A DNA stretch of 42,121 nucleotides from a virus: positions 1 through 42,121 of IMG/VR virus record IMGVR_UViG_3300042568_000126, one strand, 5' to 3'. Of the stretch, positions 10,888 through 34,241 are shown in pieces (the first letter of the stretch is position 1; the number at the start of each line of letters is the position of its first letter). The notes below the pieces were generated by a model, which had not been told where the DNA came from, searched no databases, and saw nothing but the letters and a program-made list of their open reading frames with translations. Position numbers and translations under genes: made by a program.

Positions 10888-13580
10888 TCTGCTCCTAGGA
10901 TAGTACACGGGAACGGCGTAGCGTTCGTAACTTCGATGGTCAGGTTGTCCGTCTTGGTCAGGGTGGGGAAGCGATACTCCCCGTTGTCCAGCTTAACCGA
11001 GCCGCCACCATCGTTGCCAAGGCTGGCCGTGTAGGTCATCGTAGCGGGGGTCTCCTGCTGGATCTGCACGCTGACCGTGAAGTTGTTGGTGTTGGCAAAC
11101 TTCAGCACACCGAACAAGTTCTGGTAGCGACCAGTCTTGACCGAGGCGGAGCCACCGTTGCGGGTGTCCTCGCGAACATCCACGCGACCAAACTGGTAGC
11201 GCATGGTGTACGGATGGCCGAAGTGCATACCAGTAACTGCCGTCTGATTGCCGGGAATATCAAACTGGGAGCTGCTGATTCTAGTGACCGCCAGCACAGT
11301 ACCGTCAGCCTTGACTACAGTTGAAGTCCAGCCAGTAGCCGGAAGATCAAAGCCCGTAGGTACAGTTACTCGCGTGTTGCCGCTAACAAGCGTCTTGGTC
11401 AAGCTGTCCATATTGATGCGTGCGTCAATCAACGGCGCGGTTACGGTACTGAAAGTATCCGTACCGAACTTGATGTCCATCTTCTGGAGGGCATAGCCAG
11501 TACCGATCTTGGTGACCATGTACAGCGTGTTGTCGTAGAACGCTACCGTCAGGATCTCGAACGGGTAGGCGAACTTAGACCACGCCGACTGGATGATGTC
11601 GTTACCGTTGATGAAGTACTTCCAGACATACAGCGTATCGGGATCGCTGGCGCAGCGCAGGAAGAACACCTCTTCGGTTGAGGAGCCTACGATCTCCGAC
11701 ACATTGCTTGGGATGTAGCGGGGGATCTGTGTGGCTAGGCTGTTGGCCTGATACGAACCAACAGTCACATTCTCCAGAACCTGCTGGAACTCCCACATCG
11801 ATGCGTATAGATCGCGGTTGGTGGAGAAGTAGATGTTCTTGCCTACGGCTACGGGTGACACGCCCATATCAGCCTCGTAGGCTGTCACGAACTGGATGCT
11901 AGCCGTCTTAGGCGTAAGCAGAGGCTCGCCTGTGACAACGAACTGCGCCCTGTCCGCAAACACAATGAGACGCTCGTTGTGCGGGACAGCGTGTTCTAGC
12001 TTGGCTACAGAGGTGTGGGAGGCTTGGAGATCAATCGGGTCAGCATCCAGAAGCTGCCGCACGGTGCTGCGCCAGAAGTTGCCGTAGATGCCAGCCTCCG
12101 ACATCACAACAGAGGACTCCGTAAGCAGACCCAGACGGTTCTTGTGGAAGAACACATCGGTGATGGGGGCATCAACAAAGGTCGGGGCAGGGTTGCTATC
12201 GTCGTCGCCCACCAGCCGATCTAGCCAATTAAAGGCTTCGACCGAGAAGTATGGCGTACCCGCAGTTCCAGTAATAGTGCCGCTAACATCGACCCGCCGC
12301 ACGATAGCCAGCGGCATATTCTCTAGCTCGTACTTAATGCCCGGGCCTACTGTCTCGCGCCACTCGCCCTCGCCAAAGTCGCCGGACACCTTAGCAACAA
12401 ACTTCACATAGAAGTCGTCCTCGGCTGTCTCCACCGAACCTTGGATCTTGAAGACTACACCATCGCGGCATCGCGGAGGCAACTCGTCAAAGTTGTCCAC
12501 CGTCTGGAAGTAGGACTTCATGGCGGTATCGCCAATAGAGTCCTTGGTCGTAATAGAGGTAATGTCTAAAGTAGAGTGGGTTACTTCAATAACTGAGCCT
12601 GAAACAATTGTGCTCCAACCTGTTCCAACGCCGCCAGTAATTGCTGCCGTGGTCAGCTTGGTTGCTAGCTGCGCCGCGATAGCATCTGTTTTAATGTTTG
12701 CATACTCGCTGGCCTGCCCGTCATTGATCTCGGTAATCGAGCCAAGACCTAACGAAGAGGTGGGGGTAAACGACAACCCCGGGATCTTGGAGCGGATGAA
12801 TAGCTGACCGCCGCTGACATATGCAGTCACGAGTTCATCGAGCGAGTCTCCGGCACTTGCTGCGTTAATAGCATCGCGTGCAACAATTGGATTGTTAATT
12901 CCAGCGTTGGCCCAGTTACGGGTGTAGCCTAGGATAGTAATATTACCACCCGTAAGCGAAGACACATTCGCTCGCCACAGTTCGGCAGCGGCTGTAGTAC
13001 CAGCCGTGGTTCCGTCCCAAGTGGACACCTCAGCGTCCGCAAGGCCAGTCACAAAGTTAATCGTAGCCTTGTAGTTGATCTTGTAGTTACCCTGCCGGAT
13101 ATAGATATACGCCTTACGCGCATCCTGTGCAGCCGTGGTAGCAGCACCCAGCGTGACGGTCTTAGCCGTGTTGGTCAGGAAGGTGTAGTCGTTGACCGTA
13201 GTCCACTTGTAGTCGCTAGCCGCGCCCGTCAGGTAGTTGTTGACCAGCGTAGCGTCAGGGTAGAAGACAAACTCATCATTACCGTTCAGATCCCACACAC
13301 GGACTGCATCATACGCCGTTGCGGTGTTATCCACGACAGCGGCAAGATACCGTTCAGAGGTATCCCGATTGATCCAATGGTAGCTGGCGTTACCATAGTC
13401 GTCGTCCACCGAAGCGGTAAGGGAATTCAGCCATTGCGTAGGGAACCGCTTCTTCAGCCCCTCTACGATAGTCCCGTAAGCGTTCTCCTGCACCTTGCAT
13501 TGGCTCTCCAGACGCAGCGCATCCGGCTGCTGGGAGACACCGCCAACAAGGTTAGGTTGAGCCTTAGAGATCAGAACCAT
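10842..13580 (-). CDS. Tail tubular protein B (gp12-like nozzle)
   Basis: A 912-residue protein (T7 gp12 is 794). The N-terminus, with AQPNLVGGVSQQPDALR at about residues 7-23, is the family signature; it is followed by many short beta-rich segments as expected for the nozzle at the tail tip. It forms the distal tail with tail tube A and anchors the fibres. The gene starts 2 bases after the tail tube A stop codon and ends in TAA. Identification rests on the N-terminal signature, length and gene order and is secure. Confidence 0.95.
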   Translation of the reverse strand: MVLISKAQPNLVGGVSQQPDALRLESQCKVQENAYGTIVEGLKKRFPTQWLNSLTASVDDDYGNASYHWINRDTSERYLAAVVDNTATAYDAVRVWDLNGNDEFVFYPDATLVNNYLTGAASDYKWTTVNDYTFLTNTAKTVTLGAATTAAQDARKAYIYIRQGNYKINYKATINFVTGLADAEVSTWDGTTAGTTAAAELWRANVSSLTGGNITILGYTRNWANAGINNPIVARDAINAASAGDSLDELVTAYVSGGQLFIRSKIPGLSFTPTSSLGLGSITEINDGQASEYANIKTDAIAAQLATKLTTAAITGGVGTGWSTIVSGSVIEVTHSTLDITSITTKDSIGDTAMKSYFQTVDNFDELPPRCRDGVVFKIQGSVETAEDDFYVKFVAKVSGDFGEGEWRETVGPGIKYELENMPLAIVRRVDVSGTITGTAGTPYFSVEAFNWLDRLVGDDDSNPAPTFVDAPITDVFFHKNRLGLLTESSVVMSEAGIYGNFWRSTVRQLLDADPIDLQASHTSVAKLEHAVPHNERLIVFADRAQFVVTGEPLLTPKTASIQFVTAYEADMGVSPVAVGKNIYFSTNRDLYASMWEFQQVLENVTVGSYQANSLATQIPRYIPSNVSEIVGSSTEEVFFLRCASDPDTLYVWKYFINGNDIIQSAWSKFAYPFEILTVAFYDNTLYMVTKIGTGYALQKMDIKFGTDTFSTVTAPLIDARINMDSLTKTLVSGNTRVTVPTGFDLPATGWTSTVVKADGTVLAVTRISSSQFDIPGNQTAVTGMHFGHPYTMRYQFGRVDVREDTRNGGSASVKTGRYQNLFGVLKFANTNNFTVSVQIQQETPATMTYTASLGNDGGGSVKLDNGEYRFPTLTKTDNLTIEVTNATPFPCTILGAEWIANFTTNFQRYRA

Positions 13581-19157: not shown

Positions 19158-19858
19158 AGCTTTACTTCTCCTGTTTTGTGGTTCCAGTCCTTAGAGTCTT
19201 TGAGGATGTACGCTAGCCGTGCTTGGCGTAGCGCATCATGTTCTTCTAGGCCAGCCTTGGTATAGGCGGTAACGACCGCATCCCATGTGCAGCTAGCGTT
19301 CAGGATGTTCTCGGCCTTGACTGGGCCGCAGCCGGGAAGGCCAGTATATCCATCGACGCGATCACCCGTCAACACCTGCGTCAGGAAGTAGCGGTAGCCT
19401 TCCTCAGGGCTGACCTCGAAGACCTCGTCGGAGATAGGGTTGTAGTGCTTGCCGGGAATCTGCTTCATGTCCTTGTCCCAGCTCACGATGACGGTGTCCT
19501 TGCCTGAGCGTAGGCCAAGCACATCGTCTGCTTCTAGGTTAGCGCACACCACAGCTTTGAATTCGCGGGTCACCCAAGCCACCATGTCACGGTAGGCCAG
19601 CGGCTTGCGTCCAGTACGGTTGGCCTTGTAGCCCATGTCCACACGGCGGCGGAAGTTCTCCTTGTCCGAGAAGGCAATGACGCACTTGCTCGTCTTGAAC
19701 TTCTTCTGGAGCCGCAGGATCTCTCCGTCGAAGAGGGACTTAACCGCACGCACATCCGAGTGGAGGGTGTAGAAGTCTTCGCCCCAATTGATCTCAGTCT
19801 CAGCGGCGGATGTCAGGCGGAACACAACAAGGTCGCCGTCAATAAGTAGGGTGGTCAT
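19145..19858 (-). CDS. 5'-3' exonuclease (gp6-like, FEN family)
   Basis: 237 residues (T7 gp6 is 300). Visible motifs in order are LIDGDLVVFR at the N-terminus, YKANRTGRKP near residue 78, EADDVLG near 110, VSWDKDMKQIPG near 125, and the helix-hairpin-helix LTGDRVDGYTGLPGCGPVKA near 163-182. Together these are the metal-binding and DNA-binding parts of flap-type exonucleases. In T7-like phages the enzyme removes RNA primers and degrades host DNA. Start ATG 19858 overlaps the stop of the upstream homing endonuclease gene (ATGA). Confidence 0.93.
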   Translation of the reverse strand: MTTLLIDGDLVVFRLTSAAETEINWGEDFYTLHSDVRAVKSLFDGEILRLQKKFKTSKCVIAFSDKENFRRRVDMGYKANRTGRKPLAYRDMVAWVTREFKAVVCANLEADDVLGLRSGKDTVIVSWDKDMKQIPGKHYNPISDEVFEVSPEEGYRYFLTQVLTGDRVDGYTGLPGCGPVKAENILNASCTWDAVVTAYTKAGLEEHDALRQARLAYILKDSKDWNHKTGEVKLWTP

Positions 19859-24099: not shown

Positions 24100-24689
24100 C
24101 AGAAGTCTTCCGTGCTCGGCACTTCGGTGACGGTGGGTTCATCGGAGCTGACAGCACCGAACCCGTAGTCGTTGAAGTTCTTTGCACCGCCCGAAGAGCG
24201 GAGTACCTGAACGGCTTCGAGACGCAGGCTCAGGCCAGCACCAACCGAAGGAACGAAGTAGGCGTTGGCTTTGAACGCTACCTTGATCTCCGAGTTGTGG
24301 CCCACCACATCGGTGAAGGGCTTGCCATCCGTACCGAAGAGGGCAGGCTTGCGCTCGTACTTACGACCGTCCTTGGTTTCACCAGAGGCAGCCAGCTTGA
24401 ACTTCACCTTGAAGTCCCCAGTCTCGCTGCCGTCCTTGTTGGTCAAGGGGCGGAGCGGTGAGTCGGAACGCTTGATCTTCGGCTTCTTGTGCTCCGCAGC
24501 CATGAGCTGGATAGCTTCCTCATACATGGCTTCTAGCCGCTGCATGAAGTCTGCGTGCTCAGGGTTGTTGGGAGACAGGACGATAGTAGCTTCATACTCT
24601 CCAGCCTCATTGAACTTGGTGTTCGGCTCGTTGAGCTTCGGCCAGATTGCAATGGCAGGCGGGGTCGTGATGATCTTGTTGTTGTTCAT
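24099..24689 (-). CDS. Single-stranded DNA-binding protein (gp2.5-like)
   Basis: 196 residues. The N-terminal IITTPPAIAIWPKLNEPNTKF is followed by an OB-fold-type strand pattern, and the segment GLSLRLEAVQVL near the end is typical of gp2.5-like proteins. The acidic C-terminus ends EDF; in T7 gp2.5 the acidic tail with terminal aromatic residue binds polymerase and primase-helicase. It lies directly after the RNA polymerase gene. The family match is by pattern, not search. Confidence 0.9.
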   Translation of the reverse strand: MNNNKIITTPPAIAIWPKLNEPNTKFNEAGEYEATIVLSPNNPEHADFMQRLEAMYEEAIQLMAAEHKKPKIKRSDSPLRPLTNKDGSETGDFKVKFKLAASGETKDGRKYERKPALFGTDGKPFTDVVGHNSEIKVAFKANAYFVPSVGAGLSLRLEAVQVLRSSGGAKNFNDYGFGAVSSDEPTVTEVPSTEDF

Positions 24690-27127
24690 GAGAAGAAGTA
24701 TTCGCTTTGGTTTAGAGTTGTGATGTCGAAGCTGCCCATCTCGGGAGGAGCTGGAACAGCCTCGGAGTTGTTGAGGCGCAGCTTAGTGTTCTGGGCAAAC
24801 TCTTCAAGAAGATTCCCAGAGAATGTCTCAAGTGCTGCATCCTTGAGAGCTTGCGACAACAGATCCACTTGCGATGCAGGTACTCCGAAGGAGTCATGCA
24901 CGCAGGTAATCTGGTATACGCCCCGCTCGGATAGACGATTGACAGCCTTGACTAAGACGGTCGCGTCTAACGAGTGGATGAAGTTGGGGGACAGGGCTGA
25001 CCGCTGCTTGGTGCGGCTCAGGGTCTTGTCCTCCTCGCGCATCTTGAAGACCACATAGCGGTCGCCAAGATTGGTGCGGACATACGCACCTCGTGTGCTG
25101 TTGTACTTGTGCCGGACGAAGAAGCCAACGGGTGTAGTCCACTCGATGGCCTTGCCTTCGTCGGTGTGTAGGTTAGCTACCTCGTGCAGCCATGACATGG
25201 CGGCTCGTGCCCCAGTCACGATCTCATTGATGCTGGCCCAGACCATACGGTTAAGGTAGATCAGGTAGCGGTAGCTGTCCTCAGCGATGGGAGCTAGGCG
25301 GTTGGCGTAGCAATGGTCTGCGTAGTAATCGCTTACATACTTCTGGCTGGTGTAGATGCTAGCTCCGTAGGGCAGCACCATGACCGAGCGTTTAACCAGA
25401 CCACGAGGCAGGCGGTGATGCCAGAACTCCAGCCATGCCTTGGACATCGGGTGCTCGTAGCTATCCTGTAGCTTCTTCAGCGTCAGGTCAGCCACACGCT
25501 GGTAGATATCCTGCGGTGCAGGCGAGGGCGCACAGTTGGTTGCATCCGCACCGTACTGGTCGCGCAGCATGAGAGAGAACAACTGTAGGCCATTGTTAGA
25601 TCCATCAAGTTGGATTGGCAAATGACTCAAAAATTTTTCACCCTCAACATTTGCTACCTCAATGCACGCTGCGAGGAATTGCCAAGGCTTGTCGGCCTCA
25701 GCCCACCACAGGTCAGAGAGGGGATCGCGGCCAGTAGCTTGGATGCGAGCTAGGTTGTCGCGTGTCCATGCTTCCCGTTCATCCCATGTACCCTTGTCCA
25801 TGCCAAAGGTGTTGGCGGTGTGGCGGTAGAGCCATTGCTTACCCCGACTGTCCAGCTTGACACCGTCACGGAACATCAGCAGGCCGCGAGCTAGGTCATC
25901 GCCCTGCGGATTGAGGAAGGAGGGCACAGCGTACACCCGACCTCGGAAGTCAAGCTGATAGGGGAACCAGAACGGTTCAGTACCCATCTCCTTGGCTACC
26001 ATCAGGGTGCGGCTAGTCCCAATACGAAGAGCTTGGTGCTCACGGTTACGGGTGTGGGCACGAGCAGCCATCTTCTTCCATTGGCGGTGCTCCTCGCTGT
26101 CCTTATCGCATTCAGGACGGGTAGGAGGAACCTCATCGGTACGCTTGGGCAGGCAGGGCACATCCATGTCCCGCTCCCACAGCTCACGGGCCACATCGTA
26201 GACGGTGCGGTTGATCAGGAACGGTGTGTTCTGGATGTGGTTGACCGCTTGGTATACGGCTGGACAGTTATCCTTGCTGTTGGTTGCAAGGACATCCTCG
26301 TCCACACCCTTGATCAGCTTGAGCTTGGGCAGCTCCTCTGTCCAGTAGCCCCCATCATCGACGGTACGCCATGCCTTGGGCGGAGCGTTGAGCGGTAGCC
26401 AGAAGGGTTTAGCTGCGGCCAGCAGTTCGTGTGCTTTCTTCAGCCACTCGACGGTCTCGGGCGTAGGCATCACCAGCTTCATGGTGCTACGCTTTCCCGG
26501 AGTTGTCGGGTTGGCTACATTCTTGAAGTACAGCAGGCCGGAGGTCTCGACCATGATCTCCAGCATGAACGCACCCACCCGCATCTGATCACGGTGTGAC
26601 CAGTCAGCTAGGCTGAGAGATGTGACCAACCACTTGAGGCTTTTGTTGGACTGAGCACGGTTGCGTGCCTTGGTCTTGGTGCGTTTGTGCTTACGCTGGT
26701 GGTTGAGAAACTCGGTCTTGTCCTTCGCCTTGATGGCACGGAGCATAGCCTCCTCACGAAGGTGTGCCCCAACTGCATGGGCGATGGGCTGGTAGTACAT
26801 ACCCTTGGCTAGGCAGTCCATGATTACACGAGCTGCAATGATGGAAGCCACATCAGCGGGGATCGCTGCCAGCAGGGGAACTGATGCAGCGTACTGTCCA
26901 GCCACACCAGACTTGTACTTCTCTAGCATGGACTCGATGCGTCCAGTCATCCGGCGTGCTGCCTCGGTCATGAGGCAACGCTCGGGGCTGAAGTGGGTCG
27001 GTGCTACAGGTGCAATCATCTCAGCCTTCTGCTGCCCGTAGGCCACAGCTTGGCGAGAGCGGTAGCGAGAGAGGCCGAGAGAACGCATTCGTTTCTCCCG
27101 TGCCCGTGTAGATTTCTTGTCGGTCAC
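24686..27127 (-). CDS. Phage single-subunit RNA polymerase
   Basis: 813 residues (T7 gp1 is 883). Motifs in order: DFRGRVYAVP (393-402), motif A QLDGSNNGLQLF with the catalytic Asp 508, motif B KRSVMVLPYG with Lys 579 and Tyr 587, and motif C VHDSFG with Asp 745, corresponding to T7 Asp537, Lys631, Tyr639 and Asp812. The promoter-specificity loop should lie around residues 670-710. It would transcribe the middle and late genes. The start is a GTG overlapping the HD gene stop (GTGA) with GGAGG five bases upstream. Confidence 0.98.
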   Translation of the reverse strand: MTDKKSTRAREKRMRSLGLSRYRSRQAVAYGQQKAEMIAPVAPTHFSPERCLMTEAARRMTGRIESMLEKYKSGVAGQYAASVPLLAAIPADVASIIAARVIMDCLAKGMYYQPIAHAVGAHLREEAMLRAIKAKDKTEFLNHQRKHKRTKTKARNRAQSNKSLKWLVTSLSLADWSHRDQMRVGAFMLEIMVETSGLLYFKNVANPTTPGKRSTMKLVMPTPETVEWLKKAHELLAAAKPFWLPLNAPPKAWRTVDDGGYWTEELPKLKLIKGVDEDVLATNSKDNCPAVYQAVNHIQNTPFLINRTVYDVARELWERDMDVPCLPKRTDEVPPTRPECDKDSEEHRQWKKMAARAHTRNREHQALRIGTSRTLMVAKEMGTEPFWFPYQLDFRGRVYAVPSFLNPQGDDLARGLLMFRDGVKLDSRGKQWLYRHTANTFGMDKGTWDEREAWTRDNLARIQATGRDPLSDLWWAEADKPWQFLAACIEVANVEGEKFLSHLPIQLDGSNNGLQLFSLMLRDQYGADATNCAPSPAPQDIYQRVADLTLKKLQDSYEHPMSKAWLEFWHHRLPRGLVKRSVMVLPYGASIYTSQKYVSDYYADHCYANRLAPIAEDSYRYLIYLNRMVWASINEIVTGARAAMSWLHEVANLHTDEGKAIEWTTPVGFFVRHKYNSTRGAYVRTNLGDRYVVFKMREEDKTLSRTKQRSALSPNFIHSLDATVLVKAVNRLSERGVYQITCVHDSFGVPASQVDLLSQALKDAALETFSGNLLEEFAQNTKLRLNNSEAVPAPPEMGSFDITTLNQSEYFFS

Positions 27128-27665: not shown

Positions 27666-27740
27666 TGGTGAAGCGGGTGGGAGTCGAACCCACATTCGGA
27701 GTCGCTAAAGCCCTCCGGCCTACCGTTGACTGACCGCTCC
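27666..27740 (-). tRNA. Complete tRNA-shaped sequence, anticodon position UUA; probable attP
   Basis: A 75-base cloverleaf can be read on the minus strand. The acceptor stem GGAGCGG/CCGCTTC has 7 pairs including one G-U. A D-arm follows with 3 good pairs. The anticodon loop is CTTTAGC, the T-arm is GTGGG-TTCGACT-CCCAC, and discriminator A plus an encoded CCA close it. The three bases at positions 34-36 are TTA, which would read the stop UAA. The two anticodon-stem pairs next to the loop are mismatched (G-A, G-G), so it may be non-functional. It lies just downstream of the integrase gene, where phages keep an attP copy of a host tRNA, so an attachment site is the leading explanation. An active ochre suppressor is unlikely because many genes here end in TAA. 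Confidence 0.65.
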
Positions 27741-29089: not shown

Positions 29090-29317
29090 CTAGGATCGGG
29101 GATCGGTGTGTCGGCCTAGACTGTGGTGCAAGCGCACCTCTACATTCTTGTAGGCGATGACCCGCCGTGCCAGTTCCTGCCGAAGCAGGGCGATCTGGTT
29201 GGAGTAGGTCTCAGCCTTGGCAGCGTTGCGCTCGATAGCTTGGGTCAGCTCGACGATTCGCTCGTCGATTGTCTGGCCTGATAGCTGGCGTGCGTAGGTT
29301 TGGAAGTCAGCGTTCAC
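29090..29317 (-). CDS. Small coiled-coil early protein
   Basis: 75 residues from a GTG start that overlaps the lysozyme-like stop (GTGA). Heptads in ERIVELTQAIERNAAKAETY predict a coiled coil, followed by a basic, His-rich tail (RLHHSLGRHTDPRS). No family is recognised. Translational coupling to the lysozyme-like gene suggests the two are produced together. Confidence 0.68.
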   Translation of the reverse strand: MNADFQTYARQLSGQTIDERIVELTQAIERNAAKAETYSNQIALLRQELARRVIAYKNVEVRLHHSLGRHTDPRS

Positions 29318-29724
29318 TTGCTCATCTCCTTCTTGACCTTGAGCCAGTAGGCTTCGGTTGCTTTCTTGGTGTGACCCTTCGGGCCTCCATTGTGGATGCG
29401 AGCCAGCGTCTCCCAGTCACCCGCAGCCAGAGCCTTGGGTGCGTAGCGTTGGAAGTAGGCACGCATGGTACGCTCGCTGTACACATGGTCAGCGAGGCAG
29501 TCACCGTAGCTACCGTCCTTCATGCGTGCATCCTGCCAGTACGCACGCTGGATTTGGTAGGGGCCAATAGATTTCCCGTTGTCCCCTACTGCGTAGCGTC
29601 CGTTGTCGGGCATACCGCCCGTCTCGACACGGCGGATGGCATCGAAGAAGTCTCGTTCGGTGTTGGCCTTGGCTACCAAAGGGGCAGCGATAACAGCCAG
29701 CACGAGTGCGGTTTGAGCGATCAC
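29314..29724 (-). CDS. Exported i-type-lysozyme/destabilase-like muramidase
   Basis: 136 residues from GTG 29724, which overlaps the previous TGA (GTGA) and has GGAGG seven bases upstream; the longer ATG frame to 29763 runs into the preceding gene. The start yields a signal peptide (MIAQTALVLAVIAAPLVAKA). The mature part has FFDAIRRVETGG, then DNGKSIGPYQIQRAYWQDA, and ends with LARIHNGGPKGH, the segment typical of invertebrate-type lysozymes. It should hydrolyse peptidoglycan after export, as a signal-dependent endolysin or an entry/exclusion enzyme. Its position among early genes, not late, is unusual. Confidence 0.82.
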   Translation of the reverse strand: MIAQTALVLAVIAAPLVAKANTERDFFDAIRRVETGGMPDNGRYAVGDNGKSIGPYQIQRAYWQDARMKDGSYGDCLADHVYSERTMRAYFQRYAPKALAAGDWETLARIHNGGPKGHTKKATEAYWLKVKKEMSK

Positions 29725-30083
29725 GGCAGCACCTCCATCTGGTTGGCGGAGGGGATGCAGCATTCAGGGCAGTACAGCCCACCGTCATGCACCAGCAGGA
29801 AGTTGACGGCAGCACGCACGGTTTCAGGTTGGTCAGCCAGCTCGGCGTGAGTGGTGACCTCGCCCTCGGCGTAGCAGAATTCACACTTGTAGGTCTTCGA
29901 TACACGCTCCGTGCTGACCAAGGTCACGGTTGCGCTTGGCATGACCCCCTTCAGGTGGTCATTGGTGTAGTCGTTGATGTTGTCCACCATACGCTGCGTA
30001 CACCTGACAAGTTCCTTGACTGAGGCTGGGCGCAGCGAGCCGCCATTGATAGCGATGCGAATGGTTACTGCGTTGAATCTCAT
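29721..30083 (-). CDS. Early protein with two CxxC pairs (zinc-ribbon-like)
   Basis: 120 residues from ATG 30083 (MRFNAVTIRI), preceded by AAAGGAACTACC. Cysteine pairs C67-x2-C70 (CEFC) and C105-x2-C108 (CPEC) could bind one zinc ion, splitting the protein into a helical N-terminus and a zinc-ribbon-like C-terminus. Function unknown; early position and small size fit a host-takeover protein. Its stop overlaps the GTG of the lysozyme-like gene. Confidence 0.72.
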   Translation of the reverse strand: MRFNAVTIRIAINGGSLRPASVKELVRCTQRMVDNINDYTNDHLKGVMPSATVTLVSTERVSKTYKCEFCYAEGEVTTHAELADQPETVRAAVNFLLVHDGGLYCPECCIPSANQMEVLP

Positions 30084-30120: not shown

Positions 30121-30393
30121 TCAGGGTAGGCAGACTTCCCAGAGGCCGACAAGTTCTGTGCGACCTTCCGGCGCAACATCCACTAGCTTGACCGTGCTGG
30201 GCCAGCAGTAGCCGAAGTCGTAGCCGCGCTGCATCATGATGTCACGGTTGTTGCTTGCCGCCTTGGCACACTCAAGGGCGGTTGCCTCGTCGGAGTAGTA
30301 GTTCCAGTCCACCTTGTACCCGCCGCGAGTATCGACTGGCTTGGGGTACGACATCCAAGGTTGGCTGGTCGTGTTAATGCTCTTGCTCTTCAT
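30121..30393 (-). CDS. Hypothetical early protein
   Basis: 90 residues from ATG 30393 (MKSKSINTTSQPW), with the AAAGGAACTACC ribosome-binding site and CA-rich leader; a longer frame to 30453 would enter the ribozyme. Aromatic-rich (WNYYSD, YDFGYCWPS), no known motif. It is the first gene after hammerhead copy A. Confidence 0.72.
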   Translation of the reverse strand: MKSKSINTTSQPWMSYPKPVDTRGGYKVDWNYYSDEATALECAKAASNNRDIMMQRGYDFGYCWPSTVKLVDVAPEGRTELVGLWEVCLP

Positions 30394-30430
30394 GGTAGTT
30401 CCTTTCGTTGTTGTTGATGTTGATACTGAC

Positions 30431-30499
30431 GGCCTCGTCAGGTGGTGCGTCACACCACTACATCTAGAGCGGAGAGTGTCCGCCCCAGATGTTTCGGCC
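30431..30499 (-). ncRNA. Type II hammerhead ribozyme, copy A
   Basis: 69 bases on the transcribed strand. In order: stem II half GGCC, core GAAA, a 13-bp stem III starting CATCT and ending AGATG with loop CACTC, cleavage triplet GUA (predicted cut between 30459 and 30458), stem I GTGGTG/CACCAC with loop TGACG, core CTGACGA, stem II half GGCC. All conserved hammerhead core bases are present. It lies between the DUF932 stop and the next gene. CTGACG can alternatively pair with CGTCAG just downstream. Confidence 0.9.
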
Positions 30500-30503
30500 T
30501 AGG

Positions 30504-31490
30504 TCACACCGCTACCAGAGCGGACATGACCTTCGACTTGAACTCGGCAGCGTCACCGTAGATGTTGGCGTGCATACGGCGTTCGCTGTTGTCGTTGCGG
30601 ACGGTGCGTTCGTGATCAGTCCACTCGGTGATCGAGTTGAAGATGCCCCAGAGGGAACCATCAGCGACTGCGTTCTTCGAGTTGTACAGCTTGGACTGCC
30701 ACTCGGAAACCGTAGCCTGCGCCTTGCGCTTGGCACGCTCGTCGTCAGGCTTGCCGACTGCGGCGATGTACGCACGCTCGTAGATCTCCTGCACATCGGA
30801 GGTCTTAGGCTTGGTACGGTTGAGCTGGACAACCTGTGCCTCGAAGGCACGGGCGGTCTCGACACCGAGCACAAGCTCGCGAGCGATGCGCTCGATCTTG
30901 AGGTGTACAGAGCGGGTGTGGCGTACCTTGTGGGCGTTGTTGCCAGCCTCACGAAGGGCCATGTTGTAGGTGTTGTTGCACACCACACGCACCGATGTGT
31001 TCAGGCAGCTAAACGCTGCGCTACCATCGTGTGAGTTGCCGAACATGGCGTAGGTGCGGACGATATCACCGTTGCCAGCATCGAACACATGGGTGTGAGC
31101 ACACACGAACGAGATAGCACCGCCCTTGAACGAGCCGCACGACTCGATGCGGACGGGTGCATCGGTGACGGCAGCGACACCGTCACGGATCATCTCGAAC
31201 ACTTCGCGGTTCTGCACAGGGGTGTAGCGGTCACCGACCACACCGAGCACAGCACCATTGTCCGAGCGGACAACTGCACGGTGATCAGGCAGGGTGACAC
31301 GCGCACCGTCCTGTGCGCCGCCGACCAGAGGCATGGTCTGGATGGGCACGAGATGCACATCCCAGTTCAGGTAGCCAGCGGCCAGAGCCTGATCAGGTGT
31401 GAAGGTAGACGGCAGGACTTGGCCGAGGCCATGCCATGCACGAGTGCCAGCGAGAACGAGAGTGTCCGAGGAAGTGATGTTGTGAGCCAT
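30504..31490 (-). CDS. DUF932 phage/plasmid-type protein
   Basis: 328 residues, ATG 31490 with AAGGAATC upstream. The N-terminal TRAWHGLGQVLP, the central VVRSDNGAVLGVVGDRYTPVQN and the C-terminal WGIFNSITEWTDHERTVRN are typical of the DUF932 family of phages and plasmids. Its biochemical role is not established, though it often occurs with mobile-element replication or anti-restriction genes. It is flanked by hammerhead copy B upstream and copy A downstream, so its message would be cut at both ends. Confidence 0.9.
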   Translation of the reverse strand: MAHNITSSDTLVLAGTRAWHGLGQVLPSTFTPDQALAAGYLNWDVHLVPIQTMPLVGGAQDGARVTLPDHRAVVRSDNGAVLGVVGDRYTPVQNREVFEMIRDGVAAVTDAPVRIESCGSFKGGAISFVCAHTHVFDAGNGDIVRTYAMFGNSHDGSAAFSCLNTSVRVVCNNTYNMALREAGNNAHKVRHTRSVHLKIERIARELVLGVETARAFEAQVVQLNRTKPKTSDVQEIYERAYIAAVGKPDDERAKRKAQATVSEWQSKLYNSKNAVADGSLWGIFNSITEWTDHERTVRNDNSERRMHANIYGDAAEFKSKVMSALVAV

Positions 31491-31525
31491 GATAGATTCC
31501 TTGTTGGTTGTTGGTTGAGACTGAC

Positions 31526-31594
31526 GGCCTCGTCAGGCAGCGCAGTACGCTGCGACACCTAGGGCGGAGAGTGTCCGCCCCAGATGTTTCGGCC
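31526..31594 (-). ncRNA. Type II hammerhead ribozyme, copy B
   Basis: 69 bases: stem II half GGCC, GAAA, 13-bp stem III from CATCT to AGGTG with loop CACTC, triplet GUC (predicted cut between 31554 and 31553), stem I GCAGCG/CGCTGC with loop TACTG, CTGACGA, stem II half GGCC. Stem I differs entirely from copy A yet pairs fully. The first base overlaps the TAG stop of the upstream gene. Like copy A it is followed by GTCAG, allowing an alternative hairpin. Confidence 0.92.
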
Positions 31595-31884
31595 TAGCGT
31601 GCTCCGTATTCGAGATCGGCCAGCATGGCGCGGCGATCACGGATCAGTACTTCCCGAAAAGCGGGGGCGTTCAAGCGATTGTCAGCATCCCGCTGGAGGT
31701 AGTCGCACACCGCACGCAGCTCGTCGCGGACTTCCCAAGCCGTAGCTAGCACGCCGACGACTGGATTGTCGAGGATGGCGCGGAGTTGCTGGCGCACCTC
31801 TTCGCACTCGACCTCGCTGATGTAGGTCTCAAGAGTGCCGATGGTAGCTGCCGAGAGACGACGATTGTAGGTAGCTTGCTTCAT
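31594..31884 (-). CDS. Hypothetical early protein, helical
   Basis: 96 residues from ATG 31884 (MKQATYNRRLSAATI), with AAAGGAACC upstream; the frame to 31989 overlaps the previous gene and lacks a ribosome-binding site. Highly charged and helical, no membrane segment, no recognised motif. It ends in TAG, whose last base begins hammerhead copy B. Confidence 0.7.
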   Translation of the reverse strand: MKQATYNRRLSAATIGTLETYISEVECEEVRQQLRAILDNPVVGVLATAWEVRDELRAVCDYLQRDADNRLNAPAFREVLIRDRRAMLADLEYGAR

Positions 31885-31919
31885 GTTGGTTCCTTTGGTT
31901 GGTTGTTTGAGAAGGACAG

Positions 31920-31944
31920 TTAGGGCGGAGAGTGTCCGCCCCAA
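31920..31944 (-). ncRNA. Hairpin matching hammerhead stem III only (decayed copy)
   Basis: A 10-bp stem (TTGGGGCGGA with TCCGCCCTAA) and loop CACTC, identical in its loop and upper stem to stem III of copies A-C. No GAAA core or CTGANGA core flanks it, so it cannot be a hammerhead. It sits at the equivalent place, just after the preceding stop codon, and may be a decayed copy kept as a processing or terminator hairpin. Confidence 0.75.
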
Positions 31945-31954
31945 GAGATCAGTT

Positions 31955-32392
31955 TTAGCTATACGAGCGGATGCTAGGCATAGCCTCACGCACCGTAGCC
32001 GTCAAGATATCGTACTCGTAGGCTTCGGTCTTGCGAAGAGGAACCCAGATAGGTTCTTCACCATCCGTTACACGAGCCTCAAAGCAGTCGCTTTGATAGG
32101 GATTGTAGCGGATCAGCTTGCCGTAGCTTTGGTTGAGGAAATTGTAGATATGGAAATTCATATCTAGGAATAGTGTGCCGTAGATGAAGGCGTGCACATT
32201 CTTGCGCTTCTCGCGCAACACCCGAGCACGGCCAGCTTGGGAGACCTTATAGGTCGGAGCCAGCAGGGCTAGGTGTTGAGTGTGTCCGACGACCTTCCAG
32301 CGACCATTCACTTTGGATTGTACGCTGTACAATTTGCGGTGAAAGTTCCAGTAGATGCGGACTGGCGTGTTGTGGTATGGGCGGAGTTCCAT
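31955..32392 (-). CDS. Conserved-looking phage hypothetical protein
   Basis: 145 residues, ATG 32392 with AAGGAACTCCC upstream. It contains VRIYWNFHRKLYSVQ, then GRARVLREKRKNVHAFIYGT and IRYNPYQSDCFEAR. I have seen similar segments in unassigned phage and plasmid proteins but cannot name a function. Basic in the middle, acidic later, no membrane span. It follows hammerhead copy C and precedes the decayed stem III hairpin. Confidence 0.75.
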   Translation of the reverse strand: MELRPYHNTPVRIYWNFHRKLYSVQSKVNGRWKVVGHTQHLALLAPTYKVSQAGRARVLREKRKNVHAFIYGTLFLDMNFHIYNFLNQSYGKLIRYNPYQSDCFEARVTDGEEPIWVPLRKTEAYEYDILTATVREAMPSIRSYS

Positions 32393-32412
32393 AGGGAGTT
32401 CCTTGTGTTGTT

Positions 32413-32481
32413 GGTCTCATCAGGGTAGGCTTAACCTACCGACACCTAGAGCGGAGAGTGTCCGCCCCAGATGTTTCGACC
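32413..32481 (-). ncRNA. Type II hammerhead ribozyme, copy C
   Basis: 69 bases beginning directly after the TAA stop of the gp88-like gene. Stem II half GGTC, GAAA, 13-bp stem III from CATCT to AGGTG, GUC (predicted cut between 32441 and 32440), stem I GGTAGG/CCTACC with loop TTAAG, CTGATGA, stem II half GACC. Stem II changes GGCC/GGCC to GGTC/GACC with pairing kept, and the variable core base is T instead of C. Confidence 0.92.
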
Positions 32482-33309
32482 TTACTTGAGCCGCACGACC
32501 ATGCCGGACTTGTCCCGAGTCATACGACCTAGGGCGGACAAGCCTACGATGCACCCCATAGGATCGCCATCGGAATTGAGATGCGAGATCGGATCGCGAG
32601 TGCGGTCGTCGGACTTGCGCCCGTCGATCACATCGTAGCCGTTCCACTTGGTAGGCATCGGCTCGTCCGGCTTGACATCGAACACTACGGCCACATTGAT
32701 ACCGCGCCGGATAGCATCGGATAGCTGGGCATCGGTAGTGTTCTCGGAGCGGCTAAGTGTGAGATGGTAGTCTAGATTGTACTTATTGACCAGATCCCAA
32801 TTCTTCGAGTACTCGTAGAAATTGAGATCGGCGGGGAGATCGCTACAGGCTTCGCGGATCGCTTGACGGACACGCGAGAGGCCTTGTAGGTCGCTTGTGC
32901 CGTTGAGCCGGATCGTGACACGAATGTGACGACCTAGCTTGCGAACACGAGCCGCTACCTTACGACGAGCGGATTCTGCTAGTTCGGCAATGAATCCGGC
33001 GCGGTCGGTTAGGTAGTAAACCGAGCGATTAACTTGCGCTTGCTGGACGGTTCCCATGACCATGCGGCCAGCGTGAGAACCTAAGCAAGCAGCATAGCAT
33101 CCAGCGGACATGAAGGGGCAGAATGCCCCCGGCTTGAAGTACAGGACAAGGGCTAGGTCGGCATCGCCCGAAGACTCGGACTTGTCGATCTTAGCACTAG
33201 CCGACCACAAGGTAGATTTAGACCTACGCTTGCCAGTCTTGGTGTACTTGAAGGGTACAATACCAGATGACTTGATATCCGCTAGGATGGTTGCTTGTGC
33301 GTGTTGCAT
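32482..33309 (-). CDS. gp88-like early phage protein with Cys cluster
   Basis: 275 residues from ATG 33309 (MQHAQATIL) with AAGGAACC upstream; an ATG at 33333 lacks a site. A cysteine cluster FCPFMSAGCYAACLG (Cys 64, 71 and 75), then RMVMGTVQQAQVNRS, IRLNGTSDL and FYEYSKN follow the pattern of the phage 'gene product 88' family. The three cysteines suggest a metal or iron-sulfur site, possibly radical-SAM-like, but no function is established. As the first gene after the left-end promoter region it is probably among the earliest expressed. Confidence 0.82.
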   Translation of the reverse strand: MQHAQATILADIKSSGIVPFKYTKTGKRRSKSTLWSASAKIDKSESSGDADLALVLYFKPGAFCPFMSAGCYAACLGSHAGRMVMGTVQQAQVNRSVYYLTDRAGFIAELAESARRKVAARVRKLGRHIRVTIRLNGTSDLQGLSRVRQAIREACSDLPADLNFYEYSKNWDLVNKYNLDYHLTLSRSENTTDAQLSDAIRRGINVAVVFDVKPDEPMPTKWNGYDVIDGRKSDDRTRDPISHLNSDGDPMGCIVGLSALGRMTRDKSGMVVRLK

Positions 33310-33348
33310 ATAGGTTCCTTGTTGTTGGTGCATCGGAGCTACCGATGC

Positions 33349-33428
33349 GTAGACTCGTCAGGCTAGGAGCGATCTAGCGACAATCTAGGCTGATATTCGC
33401 GGAGAGTATCCGCCCAGATGTTTCGTAC
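33349..33428 (-). ncRNA. Type II hammerhead ribozyme, divergent copy D
   Basis: About 80 bases with all core elements: GAAA, stem III C-G plus ATCTGGGC/GCCTAGAT, GUC (predicted cut between 33379 and 33378), stem I GCTAG/CTAGC with a 7-base loop, and CTGACGA. It differs from the others by one bulged T in stem III beside the core, a roughly 21-base stem III loop, and a weak stem II (GTAC against GTCTAC). Activity may be reduced. It precedes the gp88-like gene. Confidence 0.78.
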
Positions 33429-34213: not shown

Positions 34214-34241
34214 AGTATAGCCTACAGACGGCTCATGTCAA
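34214..34241 (-). promoter_or_regulatory. Sigma70-type early promoter
   Basis: TTGACA (34241-34236), a 16-base spacer, then TATACT (34219-34214). This is close to the bacterial housekeeping consensus and points towards the early genes. The -35 box contains the TGA stop of the last tail gene. A host-recognised promoter here fits the T7 strategy in which host polymerase transcribes the early region. Confidence 0.75.

Follow-up and report, generated by a model that had tools for sequence, protein, structure and literature searches.

Hammerhead ribozymes between the early genes of a T7-like phage: a candidate protein-free counterpart of RNase III processing

By what means could a phage divide the transcript of its early genes into separate messages? 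In phage T7 the early RNA has several RNase III cut sites between the early genes, ahead of or around the RNA polymerase gene, and processing there leaves hairpin-ended messages. The question arises again in IMG/VR record IMGVR_UViG_3300042568_000126, a viral stretch of 42,121 bases (the window, throughout this text) with nearly all of its genes on the minus strand, where a series of type II hammerhead ribozymes, HHR1 to HHR4, lies in the gaps between early genes. We put at roughly 78% the probability that these elements act as type II hammerheads in the early polycistronic transcript, cutting it into pieces by RNA alone. The natural role of bacterial and phage hammerheads has been a question since 2011, and a functional position shared by unrelated T7-like phages, the protein counterpart of which is thoroughly understood in T7, makes hammerhead function testable.

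Hammerhead elements in the early gaps

All elements were read on the minus strand, here the coding (sense) strand. Three of them are intact both by a type II descriptor and by a covariance model: HHR1 at 30431..30499 (predicted cut 30459/30458; 45.3 bits, E 9.4e-12), HHR2 at 31526..31594 (31554/31553; 50.2 bits, E 2.8e-13) and HHR3 at 32413..32481 (32441/32440; 57.5 bits, E 1.5e-15). Each is 69 nt long and runs from a 4-bp stem II through GAAA, a 14-bp stem III, UA or UC and a stem I of 6 bp with a 5-nt loop to CUGANGA, with stems I and III closed by loops and stem II open, which is the full type II topology. The first element of the series, HHR4 (33353..33426; predicted cut 33379/33378), is degenerate and scores 16.1 bits with the model (E 0.012); its core is present, with CUGANGA, GAAA and the NUH cleavage site in the correct order as in the other three, but its topology is partial: stem II has 2 bp, stem III is bulged and one A.C mismatch interrupts stem I. 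The original prediction, made from the letters of the window, had placed sense-strand type II hammerheads at all four sites, and the minus-strand descriptor, the compensatory changes described below and an independent model all bear this out. The exact length of 69 bases that it gave for three elements is correct, and so are its cleavage positions, which agree with our predicted cuts for HHR1 to HHR4. Its statement that all four carry the complete hammerhead order holds in full for HHR1 to HHR3 and, in HHR4, for the core but not for the degenerate stems. It had further noted that some elements touch the stop codon of the gene upstream, and indeed the first base of HHR2 is the last base of such a codon, while HHR3 directly abuts one.

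In the intact copies the sequence of stem I differs each time and yet is always paired (100% of cells). Across five sequences, the three window copies and two from the related locus L002, four of the six stem I pairs are changed on both sides, and the covariation score was reached by none of 500 shuffles. The stem III hairpin (GGGGCGGACACUCUCCGC), on the other hand, is almost identical among the window copies, all of which have the loop ACUCU. Across 400 dinucleotide-shuffled versions of the whole window, the type II descriptor matched only four times, or about 0.01 per window against three observed, and the hairpin motif has 10 matches (five sites, both strands) against 0.38 expected; a chance origin of the three complete cores is excluded.

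Built on 24 other viral hammerheads, to which neither the window nor L002 contributed, a covariance model recovers all four window elements. The Rfam type II model (RF02276, Hammerhead_II), which had been proposed as a check, matches none of the four at gathering or relaxed thresholds. Of 36 similar elements that the descriptor finds in 13 other viral control loci, the Rfam model picks up just 3, so its negative result reflects poor sensitivity of the model. A weak match to RAGATH-23 (13.5 bits) was set aside, as it covers the stem III hairpin only.

HHR4 is followed by the hairpin GCAUCGG-UAGCU-CCGAUGC, and a second hairpin with the loop UAGCU or CAGCU likewise comes next in both of its better-paired homologs (L002, 6213-6282; L294, 18624-18688). 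Its stem I (GCUAGAUCGCUCCUAGC) matches that of a better-paired hammerhead of the distant T7-like phage G045 (GCUAGGUCGCUCCUAGC). Homology to better-paired copies in two other phages marks HHR4 as a weakened copy and not a chance match. In the gap between early genes B and C there is also a truncated hammerhead (31920..31943, minus strand), which keeps the stem III hairpin and UGUC and has lost stem I, core and stem II; the appearance of this remnant suggests a deletion. The five early gaps hold three intact copies, one weak and one truncated. A leader element at 33905-33860 (minus strand; L002, 5665-5740) resembles half a hammerhead, with GACACUC...GUGUC and a stem I-like hairpin, closed by GUUG/CAAC in both phages; it was rejected as a sixth hammerhead for want of CUGANGA.

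The same placement in unrelated T7-like phages

The window phage carries a T7-like gene set, comprising a T7-type RNA polymerase, a T7-type terminase, a gp2.5-like single-stranded DNA-binding protein, a T7-type primase-helicase, a family A DNA polymerase and a head-tail connector, and it also encodes a tyrosine integrase; because of these genes we assign it to the T7-like, temperate-looking, integrase-bearing kind, for which LUZ100 serves as comparison (PMC10134795). Its early region opens after a noncoding stretch at 33.43-34.2 kb and proceeds leftward via genes A to E, the integrase and the polymerase, with the hammerhead series placed after the presumed early promoter and before the RNA polymerase gene. 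The gene set and this position upstream of the polymerase bear out the T7-like early context that had been claimed from the letters.

BLASTN of the early region against phages returned no relatives, and these were found instead via pattern and protein searches of IMG/VR. A T7-type polymerase is present in 3 of the 47 hammerhead-bearing viral records tested, namely the record of L002, G041 and G045. L002 excepted, pairwise identity among these polymerases is only 28-33% (32% for that of G045), and every hammerhead of G041 (three) and G045 (ten) is sense and upstream of the polymerase. For a test of placement, 73 T7-like polymerase loci were chosen by protein alone and not for ribozymes. Twelve of the 14 hammerhead matches in them are sense and upstream of the polymerase, a compartment making up 14% of the searched strands (binomial p=3e-9); the matches include types I, II and III, and the reversed-sequence control of the scan gave none. 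The number of independent events is lower than that of the matches, given that L353 and L360, as well as L362 and L364, are close relatives, while the chance matches in L314 and L339, which have long loops and lie antisense, were counted against the placement. The covariance model added sense-upstream copies in L317 and L371.

Cultured phages with unannotated copies, all in the early region and sense, can now be named: Rhizobium phages RHEph01 (types III, II and I), TRX32-1 (types II and I) and RHEph21 (type III), Caulobacter phage S2B (types III, I and I) and Mycobacterium phage jiawei (type III). One hammerhead of TRX32-1 stands directly after a GP88-like gene, as HHR3 does in the window. 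The reversed-sequence control for these phages gave one match in 107 kb. An extra U following A9 of the core, ahead of stem II, recurs in several loci, among them L002 7896-7965, L379 9599-9661, L380 2079-2140 and L385 6488-6548; because RHEph01, TRX32-1, S2B and jiawei have it, the same insertion in the L002 copy of HHR2 is probably tolerated. A separate observation concerns RtcB-like ligases, the type of enzyme that joins hammerhead-type ends: one is annotated at L377 9397-10050 in Mesorhizobium phage Lo5R7ANS, within a T7-like early region that yielded no hammerhead.

Series of type II hammerheads as such are a known and widespread arrangement. A strict pattern with a GGCC stem II occurs in 116 IMG/VR stretches (about two by chance, by estimate) and in 44 stretches of GTDB genomes, and a GGUC/GACC stem II pattern in at least 120 more IMG/VR stretches; the series reach nine type II copies per locus (L016, L224). 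Rows of 9-12 hammerheads in the same orientation are seen on the viral contigs L016, L183 and L224 (records G003, G039 and G045), and no T7-type polymerase was detected in G003 and G039. Clusters in prophages were reported in 2011 together with a proposal of phage transcript processing (Perreault 2011; PMC3088659), so that the earlier description of type II copies as usually isolated does not stand. The elements of that paper share with those of the window the core, the open-stem-II permutation, the stems, the NUH site, the phage context, clusters flanking single genes and the processing proposal. For the clusters of C. scindens, A. caulinodans and A. tumefaciens the paper documents cleavage in vitro (PMC3088659), and the last, the ardA triple cluster of an Agrobacterium tumefaciens prophage, which like our series consists of sense hammerheads flanking phage genes, also cleaves in E. 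coli. Unlike the window series, the ardA cluster belongs, as far as the paper tells, to a different type of phage and not to a T7-like early region. The 2011 set differs from ours also in that the window series belongs to the early region of a T7-like phage that encodes a polymerase of its own, and in that this placement is common to unrelated T7-like phages and to all three topologies.

We suggest the following course of events. As the polymerase passes a gap, the RNA would fold and cut itself after A17 or C17, leaving an upstream message that ends in the 14-bp stem III hairpin and a 2',3'-cyclic phosphate, and a downstream message with a 5'-OH and the stem I hairpin at its start, some 60-75 nt before the next start codon. 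We infer that such cleavage would take place in the infected cell and be of benefit to the phage. The outcome would parallel the RNase III processing of T7 early RNA: the elements lie between early genes and upstream of the polymerase, and hairpin-ended messages are predicted. The cut itself, unlike that of RNase III, would be made by the RNA, with no protein, and would leave 5'-OH and 2',3'-cyclic phosphate ends. This parallel, already drawn in the original prediction, is strengthened by the finding of all three topologies at the same place in unrelated T7-like phages.

It is possible, though we do not favour it, that cleavage is real and that its selected effect is control of the translation or stability of the downstream gene, by clearing or exposing its ribosome-binding site, and not the separation of messages. 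The hammerheads are positioned just before a Shine-Dalgarno sequence and start codon. In a sample of 316 distinct type II elements, viral and bacterial, collected without reference to the tail that follows stem II, 209 have both within 60 nt downstream, against 44 with shuffled tails. The type III hammerheads of S2B (L385, 8984-9041) and jiawei (L376, 9135-9188) have the Shine-Dalgarno in the loop of stem II and the start codon within the 3' strand of stem III (S2B) or just after it (jiawei), which suggests that cutting could open the start site and control translation there. In the window, by contrast, the Shine-Dalgarno lies beyond the ribozyme and seems to be unpaired whether or not the RNA is cut, and the contact of HHR2 and HHR3 with the upstream stop codon suggests some importance for the 3' end of the upstream message as well.

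A strand complementary to the catalytic core

In HHR1 and HHR2 the bases just 3' of stem II are GUCAG, which with the last C of stem II form the exact complement of the catalytic strand CUGACG. By folding and covariation, this anti-core strand is predicted to form a hairpin with the catalytic strand just 3' of stem II (CUGACG-AGGC-CGUCAG in HHR1, 30426..30441; in HHR2, 31521..31536; both on the minus strand), which would exclude the active fold. UCAG directly 3' of stem II is found in 39 of the 316 elements, HHR1, HHR2 and 37 others, where about four would be expected (an estimate from base counts), and the variable tail base matches core position N7 in 37 of these 39, U7 going with A 22 times and C7 with G 15 times, with two exceptions. 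Within the first 19 nt of the tail, 46 tails matched, compared with a mean of 22.9 and a maximum of 34 in 5000 permutations of N7 among the elements; the pairing includes G8 in all 46 and ends at stem I in 39. Single linkage at 75% strung 203 of the 316 elements together as one family, and groups were instead formed at 70% against representatives. After clustering into 17 groups the association between N7 and tail persists (Fisher p=1.8e-4), and two groups hold both types of pair. Since N7 is unpaired in the active hammerhead, its covariation with the tail requires a second fold; it lends a role to a base of the core that has been considered free, and suggests that the ribozyme has another functional fold.

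The covariation implies that this refolded state is conserved, and we read it as a probable product trap that would make cutting one-way and protect the 5'-OH end. The predicted fold of the 3' product consists of stem I and the anti-core hairpin, stacked; once the RNA is cut, this product has no fold open to it but the anti-core one. On its release in HHR1 and HHR2, the catalytic strand CUGACG would refold with the tail CGUCAG and stack on stem I, a step that would remove the active fold, block re-ligation and leave a fully paired 5' end. The main alternative to the trap, that the anti-core strand is an off switch keeping part of the ribozymes inactive before cleavage, we regard as unlikely. 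In its favour, the predicted energies of the two folds in the uncut RNA differ by no more than about 2 kcal/mol, for HHR1 -39.1 against -40.7 kcal/mol with the anti-core fold slightly favoured; the pairing, however, ends precisely where stem I begins, which is what the 3' product would lead one to expect, and the tail comes after the ribozyme, so that the active fold forms first during transcription.

The literature searched, with subscription journals outside the search, holds no description of the anti-core strand or its covariation with N7, and none is given in the accessible text of the 2011 paper (PMC3088659); the covariation goes beyond that paper, as do the T7-like early placement and the unannotated copies in cultured phages. 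The pseudoknot between loop I and the tail which is described there (PMC3088659) is possible in HHR1 and HHR2 (4 bp each; 3 in HHR3). Across the 316 elements it does not exceed permutation and is not supported as a general rule, with only a weak excess in the anti-core subset.

Remaining alternatives and neighbouring features

Several observations weigh against the processing we propose. The T7-like phages LUZ100, Pasto, Lo5R7ANS, BB8, ParKuw1 and CRP-143 have no hammerhead in the early stretch examined, and the arrangement is not universal. L002 lacks HHR3, and its HHR2 has, besides the extra U before stem II, a mismatch in stem III. The anti-core fold, predicted to be slightly more stable than the uncleaved ribozyme fold, could also inhibit cleavage, and HHR3 has no anti-core tail. 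With HHR4 weak and one of five gaps holding only a truncated copy, processing would be incomplete at best, and the complete reduction to single-gene messages that was originally predicted is not to be expected. A broader reading, which we advance tentatively and a little short of even odds, is that integrase-bearing T7-like phages use all three hammerhead topologies as a general means of early-RNA processing in place of RNase III, many type II copies having a selected anti-core strand that would make cleavage one-way and cap the 5'-OH end with stacked hairpins.

It seems improbable that the copies represent a spreading or decaying repeat, that is, a recently duplicated intergenic sequence of little function. 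The almost identical stem III hairpins, the truncated and degenerate copies and the differences between two closely related phages would fit such an origin, but the stem I sequences are wholly different between copies and still paired, other T7-like phages have unrelated sequences of all three topologies at this same place, and N7 covaries with the tail. It is very improbable that function resides in the hairpin GGGGCGGACACUCUCCGC, as a terminator or a site for protein binding for instance, with an incidental hammerhead core: the hairpin persists without a core at 31943-31920 and keeps its loop in all copies, but the hammerheads of other T7-like phages lack it, it was rejected as an intrinsic terminator because no U-run follows it, and a chance origin of the complete cores is excluded.

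The genes around the series are all on the minus strand. Early gene A (32482..33333), GP88-like (PF17338), probably has its true start at about 33310, after an AAGGA motif; gene B (31955..32392) is related to mycobacteriophage L5 gp82 (PF25735), genes C (31594..31884) and E (30121..30393) have no family match, and gene D (30504..31490) is a DUF932 gene (PF06067). Downstream of the hammerhead series follow the tyrosine integrase (PF00589; 27815..28621) and the T7-type single-subunit RNA polymerase (PF00940, phrog_414; 24686..27127). No convincing sense promoter or terminator was found between the early genes. The best promoter-like site ahead of the early region, a candidate by sequence, is TTGACA-16-TATACT (34214..34241, minus strand; 11/12), which is conserved in L002. 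In G045 a 12-base tandem repeat (accaccctaggc) precedes the early region, at the contig end in L294 (~19270-19461). The early region of the window also has a gene with a destabilase (i-type lysozyme) domain at 29314-29763 (minus strand). Adjoining the integrase is a tRNA-like gene with the anticodon UUA (27666-27740, minus strand; tRNA-Stop in ARAGORN), kept in L002 at ~11776-11850, which could be a copy of a host tRNA attachment site or a UAA suppressor.

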